Shown: in pieces, positions 5,309-13,817 of the stretch
Layout of the letters: each line of letters starts with the position of its first letter
How positions within the stretch are numbered: the stretch's first letter is position 1
NCBI GenBank assembly: GCA_002254895.1
Contig: NJDF01000026.1
Location: 1 to 21,468 of the forward strand
DNA: 21,468 bases
Direction: 5' to 3'
Source of the DNA: Thermoprotei archaeon ex4572_64
Lineage (GTDB): Archaea; Thermoproteota; Thermoprotei; Thermoproteales; Thermocladiaceae
Notes under the pieces: generated by a model
What the model was told of the DNA's origin: nothing
The model's database searches: none
What the model saw: only the letters and a program-made list of their open reading frames with translations
Translations under genes and position numbers: made by a program

Positions 5309-5479
5309 ATGGCTAGAAGGAGAAGACTTGGAGAAGGCATGATGCCTCTCATAGCTGCAGGTCTTTTAAGATTTGAAAGAGCTAAAGAACTTGAGAGAAT
5401 TAGAATTGATCCAAAGCTAGTGATCTTCTTAGGCTTCACTATTCCTGCAATACTGTTAATACTGTACTTTCTACTCTAA
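5309..5479 (+). CDS. secG: protein translocase subunit Sec61-beta / archaeal SecG
   Basis: The protein is 56 residues: a basic cytoplasmic N-terminus (MARRRRLGEGMMPLIAAGLL, then RFERAKELERIRIDPKLV) and one C-terminal membrane helix (about 36-56). The AAGLLRF motif followed by IDPKLV and a tail-anchor is the signature of Sec61-beta, the small third subunit of the SecYE-beta protein channel. A TATA-like TAAATATAG at 5281-5289 lies about 25 bp upstream of the ATG, so the transcript is probably leaderless. The last 9 bp overlap the end of the convergent YkgJ-type gene. It is often missed by automatic annotation because of its length. Confidence 0.9.
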   Translation: MARRRRLGEGMMPLIAAGLLRFERAKELERIRIDPKLVIFLGFTIPAILLILYFLL

Positions 5480-6028
5480 CTCTCTAAGACATACCTTTCT
5501 TAAGTACGTGTAGAATTCTTCAAGAGTACCCTCTACCAGATTTGAATCTACAAGTCTATTCCAGTGAGTAATTACTACCTCATATTCACGTTTTGCTTTC
5601 TTAATCTCTAAGAGACTTTTAACTTCAATTTTAAAGTCATTGTAGAAACCATAACCAATACCTGGACAGAAAGAGTAGGCTTTTTCATAAATCTCAAACT
5701 TGATGATTCCCTCATTCTCCCAATAAACGAAAGGATAGAATCTGCATATGTATGGCTTTACCGGATGAATACTACATATTAACTTATTATTGATTCTCTT
5801 ATTGAAGATACAGGAAGAGTCAATATTTTTTCTATCACGAAGCTTAATGACTGGGTAGTTCCACTCTGTAGTGTATTCTTTAGGAAAGAGTGCCGTGAAT
5901 TCCTCAATGCCCATACCCGTATACTTACTAATTCTTAAGACATCGATGTGAGTAATGGGTATCCAGTATCTTCTACAACATTCACCACACAGTGTGCATT
6001 CAAATTTTACGCGAGGGAAAATAAACAT
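5471..6028 (-). CDS. YkgJ/UPF0153 family cysteine-cluster protein
   Basis: The protein is 185 residues. The N-terminal cluster FECTLCGECCRRYW gives the C-x2-C-x2-CC signature, and later cysteines fall in SSCIFN, LICSIHPVKPYICRFYP and FCPGIG, as in the YkgJ family of putative zinc- or iron-chelating proteins (often annotated Fe-S oxidoreductase). No reaction is established for the family. The ATG at 6028 is 27 bp from a TATA-like CATATATTC at about 6051-6058, a leaderless arrangement. It converges on secG with a 9-bp overlap, and its promoter lies back-to-back with that of the tRNA 5' part. A second family member lies at 12036. Confidence 0.85.
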   Translation of the reverse strand: MFIFPRVKFECTLCGECCRRYWIPITHIDVLRISKYTGMGIEEFTALFPKEYTTEWNYPVIKLRDRKNIDSSCIFNKRINNKLICSIHPVKPYICRFYPFVYWENEGIIKFEIYEKAYSFCPGIGYGFYNDFKIEVKSLLEIKKAKREYEVVITHWNRLVDSNLVEGTLEEFYTYLRKVCLRELE

Positions 6029-6079: not shown

Positions 6080-6087
6080 TTTTATAA
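6080..6087 (+). promoter_or_regulatory. TATA box of the tRNA-Pro 5' part
   Basis: The sequence GTTTTTATAACC contains TTTTATAA centred about 28 bp before the first tRNA base at 6112. It shows the 5' part is transcribed as its own unit. Confidence 0.7.
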
Positions 6088-6111: not shown

Positions 6112-6151
6112 GGGGCCGTAGTCTAGCCTGGCTAGGATAGGGACCGCGGGG
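6112..6151 (+). tRNA. split tRNA-Pro(UGG), 5' part plus joining leader
   Basis: GGGGCCG (acceptor 1-7), TA (8-9) and a complete D-arm GTCTAGCCTGGCTAGGAT (10-25) end at 6138. Instead of an anticodon stem the sequence runs A then GGGACCGCGGG (6140-6150). That 11-mer is exactly complementary to the leader CCCGCGGTCCC of the 3' part, encoded on the other strand at 9922-9912. The acceptor pairs perfectly with CGGCCCC of that part. Predicted splice point: after T6138, inside a 3-nt bulge ATA. Downstream, a T-rich TTTTCTTCC (6173-6181) may end transcription. No T-arm or anticodon arm follows within the next several hundred bases on this strand. Split tRNA genes are known in Nanoarchaeum, Caldivirga and some Desulfurococcales. 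Confidence 0.88.
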
Positions 6152-6388
6152 CTTAACTGATTCGTGATGTATTTTCTTCCTCAGATTTCATTTCAACCTC
6201 ATCTCTCAATTAATGTCCCTAAGACTTCACACATCGACTTGTGGTAAGTATGAGCTTAGAATGAAAATTCACATACTTATCAATGGTGTGTTAGTGATTC
6301 TTGTTGAGTATTCATGATTGTAGAGAAGTGAGAATGCATTGCAGAAAAAACTATATTAACTTGGAAGATTTAGAGAGTTTTGAGAGTA
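6152..6388. other. non-coding gap between tRNA 5' part and elf1
   Basis: I see no reading frame worth calling. It holds the probable T-rich end of the 5' tRNA transcript, an inverted repeat TAAGTATG/CATACTTA (about 6245-6279) of unknown meaning, and the TATA-like ACTATATTAAC at about 6348-6358 that would serve elf1. Confidence 0.5.
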
Positions 6389-6769
6389 ATGGGTCGTAGG
6401 AGAAAAAGTAGAAAGAAAGTTCTTTTAAAACCTAAAAAGAGAATTCCTAAAGTCTTCACATGCCCTAACTGTGGTGCAACTGTTGTTAACGTTAATATCG
6501 ATAGGAGAGATGAGAGAGTTAAAGTTACTTGCGGTAATTGTGGTTTAGAGGCTGAAATGAACCTCATACCGGGATACTTACCTGTAGACTACTTTAACAA
6601 GTTCATAGACATGTATTATCAAGGATTGATAAAGCCTAAGAGAGAAGTGATTGTATCTGTAAGTGAACTTAAAGAGGAAGTTATTGAAGAGGTTGAGGAA
6701 GCTGAAAGTGTGAGAGAGTTTACTGAAAATGAAAGTATTGAAGAGAAGGAAGGAGAGGAAAGATATTAA
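6389..6769 (+). CDS. archaeal Elf1-like transcription elongation factor
   Basis: The product is 126 residues from ATG 6389. A very basic N-terminus (MGRRRKSRKKVLLKPKKRIP) is followed by a zinc ribbon with CPNCG (about 25-29) and CGNCG (about 49-53), then YFNKFIDMYYQG, which is the pattern of Elf1/ELOF1, a small factor that rides on RNA polymerase. The C-terminal 40 residues are a glutamate-rich tail (EEVIEEVEEAESVREF and on) not found in the eukaryotic protein, so the charge runs from strongly basic to strongly acidic. An upstream TTG at 6380 is possible but less likely. The next gene starts 46 bp later with its own TATA box. Confidence 0.85.
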   Translation: MGRRRKSRKKVLLKPKKRIPKVFTCPNCGATVVNVNIDRRDERVKVTCGNCGLEAEMNLIPGYLPVDYFNKFIDMYYQGLIKPKREVIVSVSELKEEVIEEVEEAESVREFTENESIEEKEGEERY

Positions 6770-6815
6770 GTTTAAATGATAATTCTTAAAAAGATTTAAA
6801 AAGACCATCATACTG

Positions 6816-7604
6816 GTGAAGATTAAGAATTATCTACTAAGTGAAATTGACAAGCACGGTACCATACACATGACGCTTTTAGATCCTGATAAGTTAAGTC
6901 TTGAAGAATTTGTAAAACTTGCAAAAATGGCAGAAAATTACGGATCTTCAGCACTCATGGTTGGTGGTAGTTTAGGTGTGAGCAGTAACTTGCTTGACAA
7001 CTACTTAAGGGAAGTTAAGTCAGAGCTAACCATACCTATCATTCTATTTCCAGGAAGTGTAGCTGGTCTTAGTCAATACGCTGATGCTGTATGGTTTTTG
7101 AGTGTACTTAACAGTACTGATCCATACTTCATAATTGGTGCACAAACACAGGCAGCCATAATGATTGCTAAAAGGTTTAAAAATCTTGAACCTATATCAC
7201 TAGCCTACATCATTATTGGTGATGGTGGTTGTGTTGGGTACGTAAGTCACGCAAGACCAATACCTTACGATAAGGTTGAAATTATGATTGCTTACGCACT
7301 TGCTGCTCAGTATTTAGGTTTTGACTTTATATATTTAGAAGCAGGTAGTGGTGCTAAAGAACCAATACCACCTGAAAATGTTAATAAAGTTAGAAGAGTC
7401 ATAAGTAAACCATTAATCATTGGTGGTGGTATTAGAGAACCTGAAACAGCTTACAAGATAGCTAAAGCAGGTGCGGACATTATTGTTACAGGAACCATAG
7501 TTGAGAAGAGTCCTGAAGTTTTAAAGAAAATTATTGAAGCCGTTAAGAGTGGTGGTAGAGATAAGATAGTGAATAGAAAGACAACATTGATTACTGAGGT
7601 TTAG
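6816..7604 (+). CDS. geranylgeranylglyceryl phosphate synthase
   Basis: GGGP synthase joins geranylgeranyl diphosphate to sn-glycerol-1-phosphate, the first ether-forming step of archaeal lipids. The protein is 262 residues, a TIM-barrel of normal length. Visible motifs are the N-terminal HMTLLDPDK with the metal-binding aspartate, MVGGSLGVS, ILFPGSV, AVWFLSVLNS, the lipid/phosphate region FIYLEAGSGAKEP, and the phosphate-binding loops IIGGGIREPE and IIVTGTIVE. It starts at a GTG (6816). A TATA-like GATTTAAAAAG at 6793-6803 sits about 20 bp upstream, so the mRNA is near-leaderless. The last 14 bp overlap the small arginine-rich gene on the opposite strand. Confidence 0.95.
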   Translation: MKIKNYLLSEIDKHGTIHMTLLDPDKLSLEEFVKLAKMAENYGSSALMVGGSLGVSSNLLDNYLREVKSELTIPIILFPGSVAGLSQYADAVWFLSVLNSTDPYFIIGAQTQAAIMIAKRFKNLEPISLAYIIIGDGGCVGYVSHARPIPYDKVEIMIAYALAAQYLGFDFIYLEAGSGAKEPIPPENVNKVRRVISKPLIIGGGIREPETAYKIAKAGADIIVTGTIVEKSPEVLKKIIEAVKSGGRDKIVNRKTTLITEV

Positions 7605-7698
7605 CCTGGACTAGTTTAGTTCTCTTACCATATCTATGTCTATGTCTCCATCTAAACATCCTTCTAAATCTATACATAAATCTTCTAAATGCTTCCAT
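7591..7698 (-). CDS. 35-residue arginine-rich protein, unknown
   Basis: An ATG at 7698 opens a 35-codon frame starting MEAFRRFMYRFRRMFRWRHR and continuing through RYGKRTK to a TAA at 7591. Ten residues are arginine, three lysine and two histidine, interleaved with aromatic residues (F, Y, W) in a period that would make a basic amphipathic helix. A strong TATA box (GTTTTAAGAA) is centred 25 bp from the ATG, the same spacing as bona fide leaderless genes here, which is the main reason to call it. The composition resembles very small ribosomal proteins such as L41e or L39e, but it matches neither by eye. A role on RNA or the ribosome is inference. Confidence 0.6.
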   Translation of the reverse strand: MEAFRRFMYRFRRMFRWRHRHRYGKRTKLVQAKPQ

Positions 7699-7719
7699 GC
7701 ATAATGTTTAGAAGTACCT

Positions 7720-7727
7720 TCTTAAAA
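7720..7727 (-). promoter_or_regulatory. TATA box of the 35-residue arginine-rich gene
   Basis: TTTTAAGA on the minus strand is centred 25.5 bp upstream of the A of ATG 7698, the same distance as for the ZPR1 gene at 4716. Confidence 0.55.
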
Positions 7728-7889
7728 CGCTGTCTCGAGTATATAGCTAAAAGTAAGTGAGGTATTAAGGTGTCATAACTAGTGATGTACTTATGAAGAA
7801 GTATGTAAGATAAGAATTCATGTGAAATCATTGATGAACTATAGATTAATAGTACATAGAGTTTATCAGAGATAACAGTCAATAAATAT

Positions 7890-9280
7890 ATGACACGCTA
7901 CATAGATTATGCAAGACATGTCATCATACTACTCTCCCTACTAATAATTTCTACACTCACCATCACTACGTATGCTGACAGATGCGTTATTCCTTGGGAG
8001 GACATAGCTATTAGAGTAACTGATCAGAAAGTTATTATTGCATAGAATGGAACTTATGAGATAATGATTCTCTCAACAGACATCATACCATACCATTACG
8101 ATAGACTTACAGGTAAGGTTAAGGCTCTAGAAATCATACCATTACCATCAGTTCCTGAAGTAGAGAAAGGTAGTAAAGAACCTTTTAACATCTTAATAAA
8201 GTATGTACATGAAAGAGTGAGAGGATTAAGAACATACACTCCTTACATAACACCTATGGCAAGTACTACTGAAGAAGGTATCACCATAATCTTTCACAAG
8301 AAGATTGATGTTCATGATATTACAGTAGTTGAAGTTAATGATACTGATGAATTTATACATTGGCTCAAAAACTACATAATGAGATATAGGTTAGAATCGC
8401 CTGAAAAGTTAAATTCTGCCTTGCCCATAATTGAAGATTATGTGAATAGAGGATACAATTACTTTGTAATCGATATTATAGAACTTGAAGAAGATTTAGC
8501 ATTCAGTAGAACCTATAGTTTATAAATTCAAATCAAACCACATATACTTTCCATTAAAAGTATCTAAAGTTGCTAAAGGATCAACCTCCACTACCTTATT
8601 CATAGTTACTACAGATAGAGTCAATATTGATGATTTAGAAGAAATAGGCTTCAAAGTTCTTCTTGAAGATGAATTGCCTAGAACTATCGCAGATAAGATA
8701 CATGATGACGTTAAACTCACGTTTAAAGGTTATAGTAGATTATGGTTAACAATTGCTAATTACATTGATGACGTATCTAAAACTTCAAGTGATGTTGAGA
8801 TAATTCTTAGACCTAGACTTTTTGAAGATATCATGAATTTATTAGCATATATTTTACCAATAGTAATCACGACATCTTTCTGCACAATCATAACTTTTAA
8901 AGAATTGAGTAAAGGTGATAAGTTACGAGTGAAGCTGTTCGCAAGTGGATTTTGTGTCTTCCTTCATCTTATTAATTGTAAGTGTGACTAATATTGTTCC
9001 ATCAGTAATACTTGCACATGACGTATTAACACCTCCTTATGAATATCATAGATACAGTTCTATATAGATACCATCAATTCTATTAACTCTAAGTCTATAC
9101 ACGTCTCTAGGAGTATTAACTTTCACTTCAGCAATATTTCTACTTAAGAGAAAAGTTATTGGAGGTATCTTAGCCATAACTTCATGCCTATACGCTATTT
9201 CATTAACATTCACCATACCTTTACTTCTCGAAATAAGAGTATATGATAAGTTTGGAGTATTGATGCTTATAAACTATTGA
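7890..9280 (+). pseudogene. decayed exported, membrane-anchored protein (DUF2330-like N-terminus)
   Basis: The reading frame starts at ATG 7890 with a signal peptide (RHVIILLSLLIISTLTITTYA) and then CVIPWEDIAIRV. It meets TAG at 8043 within VIIA*NGTYEIMILSTD, where related proteins have tryptophan (IIAWNG), a single TGG to TAG change. The same frame runs on through LEIIPLPSVPEVEKG to a stop at 8525. The sense then moves to the +1 frame near 8510 (VYKFKSNHIYFPLKV to stop 8991), again to +1 near 8945 (LLIVSVTNIVPSVIL), with another TAG at 9065 and an end at 9280. The C-terminal part has several membrane helices. Two stops and two frameshifts make it a clear pseudogene. The family call rests on the CxIPxED and IIAWNG patterns and is tentative. 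Confidence 0.75.
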
Positions 9281-9648
9281 AACTTCTTTATAGTACTTCT
9301 TCTTGCAATCTTTATGATATGTTAATTATTATTGGTGGTCCAGGAGTCTATATGAGAGTTACTGGGCAAGTAAATGATCCTGCAATTGATCTTGTAGGTA
9401 ACTTAGCTGAGCAGTTCTTAGTTAAGGATAAGTATGTTGCTGCTATATGTGCAGCACCTGCAATACTTGCAAAAGCTGACCTACTTAGAAATGTGAAAGC
9501 AACATGCTATCCAGCTACAGAGTTAATACAGATTCTTAAAGATCATAACGCTATATATGTAGATAAACCTGTCGTCATTGATGATCATGTGATAACTAGT
9601 CAAAGTCCAGAAACAGTTAATGACTTCATTGCACTACGTACTTCCTGA
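9277..9648 (+). pseudogene. N-terminally truncated DJ-1/PfpI family protein
   Basis: The fragment carries the later two thirds of a DJ-1/PfpI domain: YDMLIIIGGPGVYMRV, the nucleophile elbow YVAAICAAPAILAKADLL with its cysteine, KATCYPATELIQIL, VDKPVVIDDHVITSQSPET. Members of this family are glyoxalase/deglycase- or protease-like. The expected N-terminus of about 60 residues (the first strands and the conserved glutamate after FVADGFEE in relatives) is absent; the frame upstream closes at a TAA about 30 bp before 9277, and only the tail of the previous decayed gene lies there. The C-terminus also ends early. No promoter is evident. I treat it as a remnant, although a short translated product from TTG 9277 is formally possible. 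Confidence 0.7.
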
Positions 9649-9807
9649 CACTTATATTAACAATGTCATGGAGGTAATTCATAATTGATAAGACTTAACG
9701 TTTAGAAAAATTCATCTCCATTTCTCTTCTCAATTACTCTAAATTGTCATGCAAGTCTAGTAGTGTAAAGTGTATATAGAGGAAGACTAGTTTGAGAAGT
9801 TGAGTAA

Positions 9808-9925
9808 TGGTGGGGCCGCCGGGATTTGAACCCGGGATCACTCGGGTTCTTGCACTGCGGGGCCTTCTTTAGAGATGTAGCCCCGTACGGCATCCCAAGC
9901 CGAGCTTCAGTGGGACCGCGGGATC
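9808..9925 (-). tRNA. split tRNA-Pro(UGG), 3' part with leader, intron and encoded CCA
   Basis: Reading the minus strand from 9925: GAT, then the leader CCCGCGGTCCC (9922-9912) that pairs with the 5' part at 6140-6150, then ACTGAA, then exon G26, CTCGG (27-31) and CTTGGG (32-37; anticodon TGG) to 9894. A 47-nt intron (9893-9847) follows. The rest is C38, CCGAG (39-43), TGATC, T-arm CCGGG-TTCAAAT-CCCGG, acceptor CGGCCCC, A73 and encoded CCA (9810-9808). All stems pair; the acceptor pairs with GGGGCCG at 6112-6118. Predicted 3' splice point is before G9905, in bulge AAG. No D-arm or 5' acceptor strand exists upstream on this strand. The TATA box puts the transcript start at about 9925, at the leader. 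Confidence 0.9.
9847..9893 (-). other. tRNA intron at position 37/38 (bulge-helix-bulge)
   Basis: The 4-bp central helix is CTTG (32-35) with CAAG (9852-9849). The 5' bulge is GGA, cut after GG; the 3' bulge is AAC, cut after AA. The outer helix is the anticodon stem CTCGG/CCGAG. Inside, the intron folds on CGGGGC/GCCCCG. This is the canonical position and structure for the archaeal tRNA splicing endonuclease. Confidence 0.85.
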
Positions 9926-9946: not shown

Positions 9947-9954
9947 TTTTTAAA
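9947..9954 (-). promoter_or_regulatory. TATA box of the tRNA-Pro 3' part
   Basis: GTTTAAAAAG on the minus strand is centred 25 bp before 9925, three bases before the pairing leader. It indicates separate transcription of the 3' part. Confidence 0.7.
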
Positions 9955-10122
9955 CTTTTTCTTCATGGACTCTATTTAGTGTATGTACGTTGTCTTGTAG
10001 ATATTTTTGAGTCGTTTTACTCTATCTCTTCATTTCCTCTCCTGAATATACATTCTTCTTTACCTTCATGAAGATACATCATATCCTCAACCTGTTAAGA
10101 AAGACAATTTGGTAGTAATGGA

Positions 10123-12035: not shown

Positions 12036-12551
12036 GTGGAGAAACTGCGTATTTGTCAAGAATGTGGAGCTACATGTTGCAGATCAGGACCTATAGTTCT
12101 GACTATCTTCGACATTTCAAGACTATGTAAATATTTAAACGTAAGTATCGATGAGTTCATTGAGAAATATGTACAGATAGTAAGTGGTGAGGACTACGCT
12201 AAGTTCTTTAATCTTGAAATTAGTAATGAAGTACTTCATAAATTGAGAAAAGTCATCTACATAACCTTAAAATCAAGAAGTGATGGGTCATGTATTTTTC
12301 TAGAAAATAATCTATGTAAAGTATATCCTGCAAGACCATTAACTTGCAGAGTCTTTCCATTAAGGATTGGAGGTACTATTAAAAAGTGTCCACTAAGTAG
12401 TGAAGGGAAGTTATTGAGAGATGAGGAGAAAGAGTATTCAAAATATTTACAGGAGAATTTTAAACACGCAGTAATTTACATGAAATGCCTAGATCAACAT
12501 GATGGTGATGTTGATAATTTAGTTAAGTGCTTAATTAGTCACGTACCTTAA
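12036..12551 (+). CDS. YkgJ/UPF0153 family cysteine-cluster protein (second copy)
   Basis: The protein is 171 residues with the cluster RICQECGATCCRSGP (C-x2-C-x3-CC), then SDGSCIFLENNLCKVYPARP, LTCRVFPLR and IKKCPLS, which define the YkgJ family of presumed metal- or Fe-S-binding proteins. It differs from the copy at 5471 in the first cluster's spacing (x3 against x2) and in sequence, so they are not a recent duplication. The start is GTG 12036 (MEKLRIC); TTTTTAAA at about 12003-12010 is a TATA box about 27 bp upstream. The stop shares a TTAA with the stop of the convergent gene at 12548. Confidence 0.85.
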   Translation: MEKLRICQECGATCCRSGPIVLTIFDISRLCKYLNVSIDEFIEKYVQIVSGEDYAKFFNLEISNEVLHKLRKVIYITLKSRSDGSCIFLENNLCKVYPARPLTCRVFPLRIGGTIKKCPLSSEGKLLRDEEKEYSKYLQENFKHAVIYMKCLDQHDGDVDNLVKCLISHVP

Positions 12552-12859
12552 ACTAGAGCTAAATCTCTAAAGTCGTATGGCAAGGATTTACCACTAGCCT
12601 TAATCTCGTCATAACGTTTCTCTAAAAATTGTTCAAGTACTGGACACCCATCATATCTTCCATCTCTTGGACATTTATTATCTCTCCTCTCATAAGCTAT
12701 GAAGCATATTGAAGTCTTCACGTCATAGTATGGACATTTCTTGTAGTACTTCTTTATGGACTTGATAATTCTCATAACCCACTTAGTTCTTGGATCCTTC
12801 ACTTCTCTCTTAAGTTCAAATTCACCTATATCACTATCTTCTCTGTACAGATACGACAT
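12548..12859 (-). CDS. conserved-looking four-cysteine protein, unknown function
   Basis: The protein is 103 residues, highly charged. A basic helix (DPRTKWVMRIIKSIKKYYKK) leads to CPYYDVKTSICFIAYERR, then NKCPRDGRYDGCPVLEQFLE. The four cysteines (C-x9-C, C-x7-C) could bind a metal or an iron-sulphur cluster; this is inference. I do not recognise the family. It converges on the YkgJ gene and overlaps it by 4 bp, and the shared cysteine theme may be chance. The start is ATG 12859, with an in-frame stop a few codons upstream. An AT-rich GAAAAATAACC (12874-12884) may be its promoter. Confidence 0.65.
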   Translation of the reverse strand: MSYLYREDSDIGEFELKREVKDPRTKWVMRIIKSIKKYYKKCPYYDVKTSICFIAYERRDNKCPRDGRYDGCPVLEQFLEKRYDEIKASGKSLPYDFRDLALV

Positions 12860-13005
12860 GGAGGACCCCTCTTATGGTTATTTTTCACTCACCTACTCTG
12901 AGAATTCTGTAAGTCTTAGATTTTATAAGTCTTCTTCAACATCCTCTAGTGAAGATGATACTTGTAAGAATAATCTTAATAAGTCCTTCATTAAGATTGT
13001 CTGAA

Positions 13006-13019
13006 GGTGAGAATCTATT
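13006..13019 (+). promoter_or_regulatory. Shine-Dalgarno and ATT start of purQ
   Basis: GGTGA (13006-13010; anti-SD pairing GGAGGTGAT type) is followed after 6 bases by ATT at 13017. A TATA-like CTTAATAAG at 12975-12983 places the RNA start near 13003, giving a short leader that holds this SD. No ATG/GTG/TTG lies in frame between the upstream TGA (13008) and position 13242. Confidence 0.55.
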
Positions 13020-13817
13020 AAGAGAAGTGAAATTAATGTATTAATACTTAGAGTTCCAGGAACTAACTGTGATATTGAGACTAAGATAGCTTTTGAAAGT
13101 TTAGGCGTTAATGTTGAGATTGCACATTTTAATAGGTTACTAAGAAGTAGAAAACTACTTCTAAACTACCAGATACTTGTATTTCCTGGAGGCTTCAGCT
13201 ATGGTGATTACGTACGTGCAGGCGCTATTTGGGGTAAGAAATTGATTACTAAAGTTGAAAGTGAGTTAAGAGAATTTGTAAGAGAAGGTAGAGCCATTCT
13301 AGGTATCTGTAATGGCTTTCAGGTTCTTGTCGAGTCGGGATTAATTCCTGGACTTAGTAGTGTTCAAGTATCACTAACAGTAAACACCTCCGCAAGATAT
13401 GAGTGTAGATGGGTGTATCTCAAACATGTAAATAATGGTAAGTGCTTACTAACAAGAGAAGTACCTAAAGATAGAGCCTTAAGGATACCTATAGGTCATG
13501 GTGAAGGAAGGTTTATTGTAAGTAATGAAGATAGTCTTAAAGAAATTGTAAATAATGACTTGATAGTCTTTAAATACGTGAGACCTGATGGATCTGAAGC
13601 AGATGGTGAATATCCATACAATCCCAACGGCTCAATAATGGATATTGCAGGTATATGTAATATTGACGGTAACGTTCTTGGAATGATGCCTCATCCAGAA
13701 AGAGCGTTCTTTAAATGGCAACTTCCTGACTGGACTAGAACGAGTAGTGCTGAAGGTTACGGTGATGGATATTACGTAGTTGAATCAATCGTAAAGTATA
13801 TTGAGAAGAAGTTTTAA
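13017..13817 (+). CDS. purQ: phosphoribosylformylglycinamidine synthase, glutaminase subunit PurQ
   Basis: PurQ supplies ammonia from glutamine for FGAM synthesis in purine biosynthesis, acting with PurL and PurS, neither of which is in the window. Reading from ATT 13017 the product is about 266 residues. Class I amidotransferase motifs: NVLILRVPGTNCDIETKIAF, LVFPGGFSYGDYVRAGAIW, the nucleophile elbow AILGICNGFQVL (Cys), RIPIGHGEGRF, and the catalytic MMPHPERAF (His, Glu). A canonical codon (TTG 13242) first appears inside the protein, after the conserved N-terminal half-domain, so real initiation must be upstream at a non-standard codon. moeA follows 30 bp later. Confidence 0.92.
   Translation: MKRSEINVLILRVPGTNCDIETKIAFESLGVNVEIAHFNRLLRSRKLLLNYQILVFPGGFSYGDYVRAGAIWGKKLITKVESELREFVREGRAILGICNGFQVLVESGLIPGLSSVQVSLTVNTSARYECRWVYLKHVNNGKCLLTREVPKDRALRIPIGHGEGRFIVSNEDSLKEIVNNDLIVFKYVRPDGSEADGEYPYNPNGSIMDIAGICNIDGNVLGMMPHPERAFFKWQLPDWTRTSSAEGYGDGYYVVESIVKYIEKKF

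Follow-up and report, generated by a model that had tools for sequence, protein, structure and literature searches.

How does an organism come to make one tRNA from pieces that face each other on opposite strands? The locus considered here raises this question for tRNA-Pro(UGG). Its gene consists of two pieces about 3.7 kb apart, 6112-6138 (+) and 9905-9808 (-), within the 21,468-nt stretch of DNA that was analysed as a whole (the window). Trans-spliced tRNA genes are known in only a few archaea: the consulted part of a 2014 review lists them in seven genomes of hyperthermophilic archaea, where they cover 12 anticodons, with six split or tri-split tRNAs in Caldivirga (PMC4033280), one of which is described as broken at 25/26 (PMC4090602). 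The case bears on the open question of whether splits arose from introns or introns from splits, and on whether inversion is a common route to split tRNA genes.

A proline tRNA in two pieces

Several features can be read directly from the DNA (Table 1): the exons, the tails that complement each other, the register in which the break falls, the motif at the intron and the TATA-like hexamers. The full tRNA is formed by two separately encoded pieces together and by neither alone. Joining exons 6112-6138, 9905-9894 and 9846-9808 gives a product of 78 nt (27 + 12 + 39 nt, with CCA counted in the last) in which CCA is encoded and, just as the initial annotation had described, the four stems are complete and the conserved bases are present. 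ARAGORN calls these joined exons tRNA-Pro(tgg) over positions 1-78, and the coordinates first proposed for the split gene match. The same program reported 0 tRNA genes in the whole window, 0 in the 5' part or the 3' part when each was taken with its flanks, and nothing in the joined but unspliced sequence. A standard tRNA finder overlooks this gene, and genomes scored as being without tRNA-Pro(UGG) may therefore carry its pieces.

Table 1. Elements of the split tRNA-Pro(UGG) gene, by position in the window.
Feature	Positions	Strand	Remarks
TTTATA, TATA-like hexamer of the 5' part	6081..6086	+	starts at -31 from 6112; putative function
5' exon, positions 1-25, 27 nt: acceptor 5' strand, U8, D arm	6112..6138	+	
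Tail of the 5' part: single bulged A and GGGACCGCGGG	6139..6150	+	complements 9922-9912
BRE/TATA-like AAAAAG-TTTAAA of the 3' part	9949..9960	-	TTTAAA at 9954-9949, starts at -32 from 9922; putative function
Leader of the 3' part: CCCGCGGTCCC (9922-9912), ACTG (central helix strand), AA (bulge)	9906..9922	-	
Middle exon, positions 26-37, 12 nt, with the UGG anticodon	9894..9905	-	
Cis intron at 37/38, 47 nt	9847..9893	-	central helix CUUG/CAAG, 3-nt bulges
3' exon, positions 38-73 and encoded CCA, 39 nt	9808..9846	-	

By itself the ARAGORN call is weak because the 3' part dominates such calls: 1101 of 42,884 27-mers from the window also yield a tRNA when joined to the same 3' part. A stricter search for the 5' part (an exact 7-bp acceptor complement, four D-stem pairs and five conserved features, at lengths of 24-28) is more telling. 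A single site in the window qualifies (6112, length 27), while none did in 1000 Markov-1 simulated windows, the acceptor 7-mer alone occurring somewhere in 40 of these 1000. The acceptor stem that had been proposed to form across the two parts is an exact 7-bp complement.

Because the two pieces lie on opposite strands, they cannot belong to one collinear transcript, and a giant intron within a single transcript is ruled out. A permuted tRNA, whose one transcript has the 3' half ahead of the 5' half, does not fit opposite strands either. The gene is also not tri-split, as there are two pieces, with positions 26-37 and 38-73 on the same strand and 47 nt apart. When introns were allowed in the joined, still unspliced exons, ARAGORN offered a tRNA-Ser(tga) with a 47-nt intron; this call was set aside because its anticodon and splice site miss the bulge-helix-bulge cut by one base. 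In Rfam the 3' part matched tmRNA with 23.6 bits against a cut-off of 47, which reflects likeness in the T-arm and acceptor.

A split tRNA gene is the best-supported explanation of the parts, the tails, the TATA-like boxes and the isotype taken together. We therefore regard the locus as very probably a split tRNA-Pro(UGG) gene, the transcripts of which are predicted to pair via their tails and to be joined at 25/26. CCA is the most frequent proline codon in the 11 open reading frames counted (79 of 161 proline codons).

The predicted trans junction, the cis intron and the putative promoters

The two transcripts would pair through complementary tails of 11 nt. The tail helix (6140-6150 with 9922-9912) has 11 of 11 pairs, is GC-rich and lies beside the break, with a computed energy of -25.2 kcal/mol at 37 C and -10.0 at 85 C. 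On the + strand of the whole window, GGGACCGCGGG occurs at 6140 and 9912 only and its complement is absent. Perfect complements of 11 nt were found in 109 of 300,000 non-overlapping random 30-nt pairs. The leaders had been described as sitting exactly at the break; their perfect complementarity stands, but they are not flush, as the helix begins 1 nt past U25 in the 5' part and stops 6 nt short of G26 in the 3' part. These offsets of 1 and 6 nt put the helix in bulge-helix-bulge register with the break. This register places the bulges AU|A and AA|G, and cuts at 25/26 leave exactly G26 between U25 and C27. At the trans junction the two 3-nt bulges and a spacing of 4 nt are present, and the central helix has three of four pairs (one of them U-G) and one G.A mismatch. 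Relaxed bulge-helix-bulge motifs have been described for split tRNAs, as the consulted part of PMC4033280 states.

Free-energy folding of the paired precursors favours mispairing of the D-arm with the anticodon-arm, by 10.7 kcal/mol at 37 C and by 7.5 at 80 C. In the mature tRNA, too, another fold (-40.0 at 37 C) ranks over the cloverleaf (-30.6). This preference for other pairings and the G.A mismatch are weak points of the split-tRNA reading.

A distinctive part of the gene is the 47-nt cis intron at the canonical position 37/38, which the initial annotation held only implicitly. Here the core of the bulge-helix-bulge is perfect, with 4 of 4 pairs in CUUG/CAAG and bulges GG|A and AA|C, and cutting out the intron would leave an anticodon loop of 7 nt. 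The tRNA-splicing endonuclease and a ligase would join the transcripts at 25/26, and the same endonuclease would remove the 37/38 intron from the 3' transcript. Because the 3' transcript carries this intron, making the tRNA would take two splices, one in trans and one in cis.

A TATA box had also been claimed ahead of each part, and TATA-like hexamers are indeed found at nearly equal distances, TTTATA with its start at -31 relative to 6112 and TTTAAA with its start at -32 relative to 9922. Counting the plain hexamers TTTATA and TTTAAA, either one starts at -34 to -26 for 170 of 9920 intergenic position and strand choices (about 1.7%). The 3' transcript would start three bases before the leader. 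In the split-gene reading, the gene would be transcribed from two promoters and its transcripts paired and spliced into a tRNA used in translation.

Comparison with known split tRNAs

The comparisons below rest on the consulted parts of the cited papers. A break at 25/26 had been suggested to be new. This does not hold, as it is already described for Caldivirga maquilingensis tRNA-Glu(UUC) and at the 26-37 piece of its tri-split tRNA-Gly (PMC4090602). The split tRNA-Glu(UUC) is similar in belonging to the same order and in having the 25/26 break and complementary leaders, and the pieces of the tri-split tRNA-Gly meet at 25/26 and 37/38, both of which are interrupted in tRNA-Pro(UGG) (PMC4090602; PMC4390854). 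However, the Caldivirga isotypes are Glu and Gly, and the 37/38 position is a gene split in the tri-split tRNA-Gly and a cis intron in tRNA-Pro(UGG).

The suggestion that a split proline isotype is new fared better. Proline is missing from the split-tRNA lists in the parts seen of PMC3218864 (Table 1) and PMC4390854, though it may have been described elsewhere, and a split tRNA-Pro is likewise unlisted in the consulted portions of PMC4033280, PMC2237900, PMC8450103, PMC4090602, PMC3293823, PMC12397907, PMC4935971, PMC3978253, PMC10714607 and PMC3491384.

Thermosphaera aggregans split tRNA-Asp(GUC) also has near, convergent halves on opposite strands, which its authors trace to the splitting and inversion of a continuous ancestor; in contrast to tRNA-Pro(UGG), it is broken at 37/38, its halves are ~160 bp apart and the portion seen lists no intron (PMC3218864). 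The halves of Staphylothermus split tRNA-Lys(CUU) resemble the present ones in lying ~4.5 kb apart with protein genes between them, in their perfect 13-nt pairing and in having their own promoters, but they lie on one strand, the break is at 30/31 and again no intron is listed in that portion (PMC3218864). In Pyrobaculum islandicum, of the same order, the same tRNA is interrupted several times in a three-intron pre-tRNA-Pro(UGG); unlike the split gene it is continuous and cis-spliced, and the likeness is drawn irrespective of where its introns lie (PMC4390854). Finally, the permuted tRNA-iMet and tRNA-Tyr of Thermofilum pendens are rearranged tRNAs that retain the canonical 37/38 intron, but they are permuted on one transcript and joined at 59/60 (PMC3218864). 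The present gene would extend the class to proline, in an organism akin to Caldivirga, with the break position known from Caldivirga and with a cis intron retained.

Proposed origin of the split and alternative explanations

Most likely, the split arose by inversion of a two-intron gene. The ancestor would have been a continuous tRNA-Pro gene that had an intron at 25/26 and another at 37/38. An inversion of ~3.7 kb, one of its ends inside the loop of the 25/26 intron hairpin, would have broken it. Such an inversion from the intron loop would account for the pieces facing each other and for the two 11-mers being direct repeats on the + strand. Whether the gene is both the earliest known case of a split tRNA-Pro and an intermediate between a two-intron and a tri-split tRNA, in which one inversion opened the 25/26 intron and gave the 3' piece a promoter while 37/38 is still spliced in cis, seems to us evenly balanced. 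If true, the intermediate would show directly how introns become gene splits.

An inversion with one end in the 25/26 intron hairpin predicts exactly the layout seen, and the same layout would result if the stretch between the 11-mers had been inverted or mis-joined in assembly, the real gene being continuous with introns at 25/26 and 37/38. For GGGPS, which lies within the inner segment, the 21,468-base contig is the only one listed, which leaves room for such an error. We nevertheless consider it very improbable. The shared repeat is just 11 bp, and usual assembly words are longer. A TATA-like hexamer at -32 of the 3' leader (about 1.7% of intergenic choices) would be unexpected at an accidental joint. 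In addition, identical TmcA (left flank) and MoeA (right flank) each have a longest listed contig of 36,192 bases, so that a second contig probably carries both flanks, an argument that covers the flanks and not the inner segment.

The pieces could also be dead remnants of a tRNA gene that was rearranged or targeted by an element, with an intact tRNA-Pro(UGG) elsewhere doing the work. Partial tRNA fragments tied to integration are reported for Aeropyrum and Thermosphaera in the part seen of PMC3218864, the 3' end of the tRNA has matches in ten Sulfolobus virus records (query 45-75, 49-75 or 47-70), and a DJ-1/PfpI open reading frame between the halves covers only positions 60-159 of the 165 in its profile. 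Yet a scan of 24 of the 26 open reading frames with 90 aa or more gave no match to any integrase or transposase family at E 0.001, and remnants would not be expected to keep all stems, complementary tails that are in register for splicing, a promoter-like box for each piece and the cis intron motif intact. Decay of this kind is very improbable, and the split gene remains the preferred reading.

Relatives of the locus

Among named organisms the closest relatives are Vulcanisaeta, which share their order with Caldivirga, and the source archaeon is likely related to both. An MoeA with 88% identity is encoded on a contig of 133,353 bases. The genome-contig scan with GGGPS and the searches of viral contigs, plasmids and phages yielded no homologous tRNA gene, whether intact or split. 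Three tRNA patterns gave no homologous locus in the viral contigs, where a search with the GGGPS alignment gave 28 stretches that fitted a pattern, with no relatives among them, and the joined tRNA was unmatched in plasmids. The genome-contig scan had a single match (L001), a 4,453-base contig filed as an uncultured Clostridia bacterium. Across 398 genomes from the phylum of its host genome the best match outside that contig had 41% identity, and L001 has no Rfam match at E 1. Its GGGPS (52%) adjoins an open reading frame that by eye resembles an Elf1-like zinc ribbon. In phages, the match of the ten Sulfolobus virus records is confined to the T-arm and acceptor end of the tRNA, which is the usual integration-site likeness.

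The joined tRNA

The initial annotation had read two parts on opposite strands as one tRNA-Pro(UGG), and this reading is borne out: the joined exons form a complete tRNA of 78 nt, and ARAGORN finds no tRNA in either part when each is searched separately with its flanks, nor any tRNA gene in the whole window. All the stems and conserved bases expected of the joined molecule are present, with a 7-bp acceptor stem, a 4-bp D-stem (including two G-U pairs) with a 10-nt loop, a 5-bp anticodon stem with a 7-nt loop, a 5-nt variable loop, a 5-bp T-stem, A73 and an encoded CCA. An Rfam tmRNA match at 9808-9891 (-) was rejected; its 23.6 bits fall short of the cut-off (47), and what it picks up is a resemblance in the T arm and the acceptor end.

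Features of the probable split tRNA-Pro(UGG) gene
Feature	Position	Strand	Sequence and content
5' exon of tRNA-Pro(UGG)	6112-6138	+	GGGGCCGTAGTCTAGCCTGGCTAGGAT; acceptor 5' strand, U8, D arm
5' tail	begins one A past 6138	+	GGGACCGCGGG
Leader of 3' part	9922-9912	-	CCCGCGGTCCC, then ACTGAA
Middle exon	9905-9894	-	GCTCGGCTTGGG; 47-nt intron next
3' exon	9846-9808	-	CCCGAGTGATCCCGGGTTCAAATCCCGGCGGCCCCACCA

Predicted splice junctions and processing

In a bulge-helix-bulge motif, the splicing endonuclease cuts both 3-nt bulges after their second base. At the cis intron (37/38), GG|A and AA|C form the bulges around a fully paired (4/4) central helix, CUUG/CAAG; cuts there would yield the 7-nt anticodon loop. 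At the trans junction (25/26), the register is set by the 11-bp helix of the tails, giving a 5'-strand bulge AU|A and, on the 3' strand, ACUG followed by the bulge AA|G; the predicted cuts would leave a single base, G26, between U25 and C27. That the helix register and the cloverleaf agree in this way is, in our view, the strongest single argument. What counts against it is the imperfect central helix of the trans junction, with U-G, A-U and G-C pairs and one G.A mismatch. Since a review describes relaxed bulge-helix-bulge motifs for split tRNAs (PMC4033280), the trans junction may be read as such a relaxed motif.

The tail helix has a computed energy of -25.2 kcal/mol at 37 °C and -10.0 at 85 °C. 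Also against the reading, free-energy folding, which is blind to modifications, tertiary contacts and proteins, keeps the acceptor and tail helices of the two paired precursors but favours mispairing of the D-arm and anticodon-arm, with a margin of 10.7 kcal/mol (37 °C) or 7.5 kcal/mol (80 °C); nor is the cloverleaf the computed optimum of the mature tRNA (-30.6 vs -40.0 at 37 °C; -5.7 vs -11.3 at 80 °C). In the proposed pathway, the two transcripts would pair via their complementary tails, the endonuclease would cut in trans at 25/26 and in cis at 37/38, and a ligase would join the exons.

A TATA box had also been proposed before each part; TATA-like hexamers do stand there (TTTATA starting at -31 from 6112, TTTAAA starting at -32 from 9922), and their promoter role is putative. 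Either hexamer starts at -34 to -26 in 170 of 9920 intergenic choices. A weighted BRE and TATA score, its weights chosen after sequence inspection, places the 3' part in the top 0.11% and the 5' part in the top 1.2% of such choices. For N. equitans, one study places TTTAAA 26 nt upstream of the transcription start of tRNAs and tRNA halves (PMC3491384). A T-rich stretch, TATTTTCTTCC, lies about 20 nt past the 5' tail.

Chance and assembly

ARAGORN is lenient on the joined sequence, and 1101 of 42,884 window 27-mers are also called when placed before the same 3' part. A stricter count required the exact acceptor complement, four D-stem pairs, U8, A14, R15, A21 and the D-loop GG; the only such site in the window is 6112, and none occurred in 1000 Markov-1 windows (the acceptor 7-mer alone was present in 40). 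The window has a single match to the T-loop pattern GGTTCRANNCC, inside the 3' part; 4 of 100 shuffles contained one. The reported 11-nt complementary leaders are confirmed, the 11-mer lying on the window's + strand at 6140 and 9912 only; window GC is 34.7%, and among 300,000 pairs of 30-nt segments drawn at random without overlap, 109 have an 11-nt stretch of perfect complementarity.

For the window's GGGPS the listing shows a single contig, whose 21,468 bases equal the window in length. TmcA and MoeA sit on opposite sides of the split, and because identical (100%) entries of both (one contig for TmcA, two for MoeA) list a contig of 36,192 bases, the longest, a second, longer contig probably carries both flanks, with no bearing on the inner segment. 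A relative carries an 88%-identical MoeA on a contig of 133,353 bases.

Known and possibly new features

We file the locus under a known class, split tRNA genes. The 25/26 break, thought possibly new, has precedents in Caldivirga, namely tRNA-Glu(UUC) and the tri-split tRNA-Gly (PMC4090602). Split-tRNA lists in parts of PMC3218864 and PMC4390854 name Lys, Gln, Glu, His, iMet, Asp, Gly and Ala, and Pro is absent from them. Table 1 of PMC3218864, which does not cover Caldivirga, records an intron in the two Thermofilum permuted tRNAs and none in its split tRNAs; the mixed trans and cis layout may therefore be new.

The 11-mers are direct repeats on the + strand and the tRNA halves face each other; a single inversion with one end inside the hairpin loop of a 25/26 intron would produce both, and the sequence and timing of these events are what we infer. 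Convergent halves, as in this tRNA-Pro, occur in Thermosphaera aggregans tRNA-Asp, for which PMC3218864 infers a split and an inversion. In Caldivirga, split-tRNA leaders resemble same-position introns of relatives, according to PMC4390854.

Gene surroundings

Among the matches listed for GGGPS, TmcA and MoeA, the closest named ones are from Vulcanisaeta (order Thermoproteales; GGGPS and TmcA each 63-66% identical, V. distributa MoeA 53%), with Caldivirga at 59% for GGGPS and 54% for TmcA; several matches there without a genus label, some 'Crenarchaeota archaeon', outscore Vulcanisaeta. A 4,453-base contig (L001, 1-4453) assigned to an uncultured Clostridia bacterium has an archaeal look, and the GGGPS it encodes shares 52% identity with that of the window; it is likely contamination of that genome.

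Core genes in the window include Rpb4, TmcA, ZPR1, Elf1, GGGPS (PcrB family), PTH2, pyrophosphatase, a PurQ-like amidotransferase, MoeA and a beta-CASP nuclease, among others; Elf1 and GGGPS lie between the tRNA halves. Among 24 scanned ORFs (of 26 of at least 90 aa in the window), a cut-off of E 0.001 gave no match to integrases or transposases, and 7 had no family match. In 11 ORFs, CCA is used more often than any other proline codon (79/161), so that demand for a UGG tRNA is to be expected.

Also between the halves, a DJ-1/PfpI ORF (9277-9648, +) matches only profile positions 60-159 of 165; reading 8960-9330 by eye in all three forward frames, we recognised no N-terminal part, and the gene is possibly truncated. 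The PurQ-like ORF (12850-13242, +) matches its profile from position 77; its frame is open upstream of the first ATG/GTG/TTG at 13242, where residues by eye fit the missing domain start, and translation may begin at a rarer codon. Two CxxCxxCC (PF03692) proteins flank the split tRNA, at 5471-6028 (-) and 12036-12551 (+).
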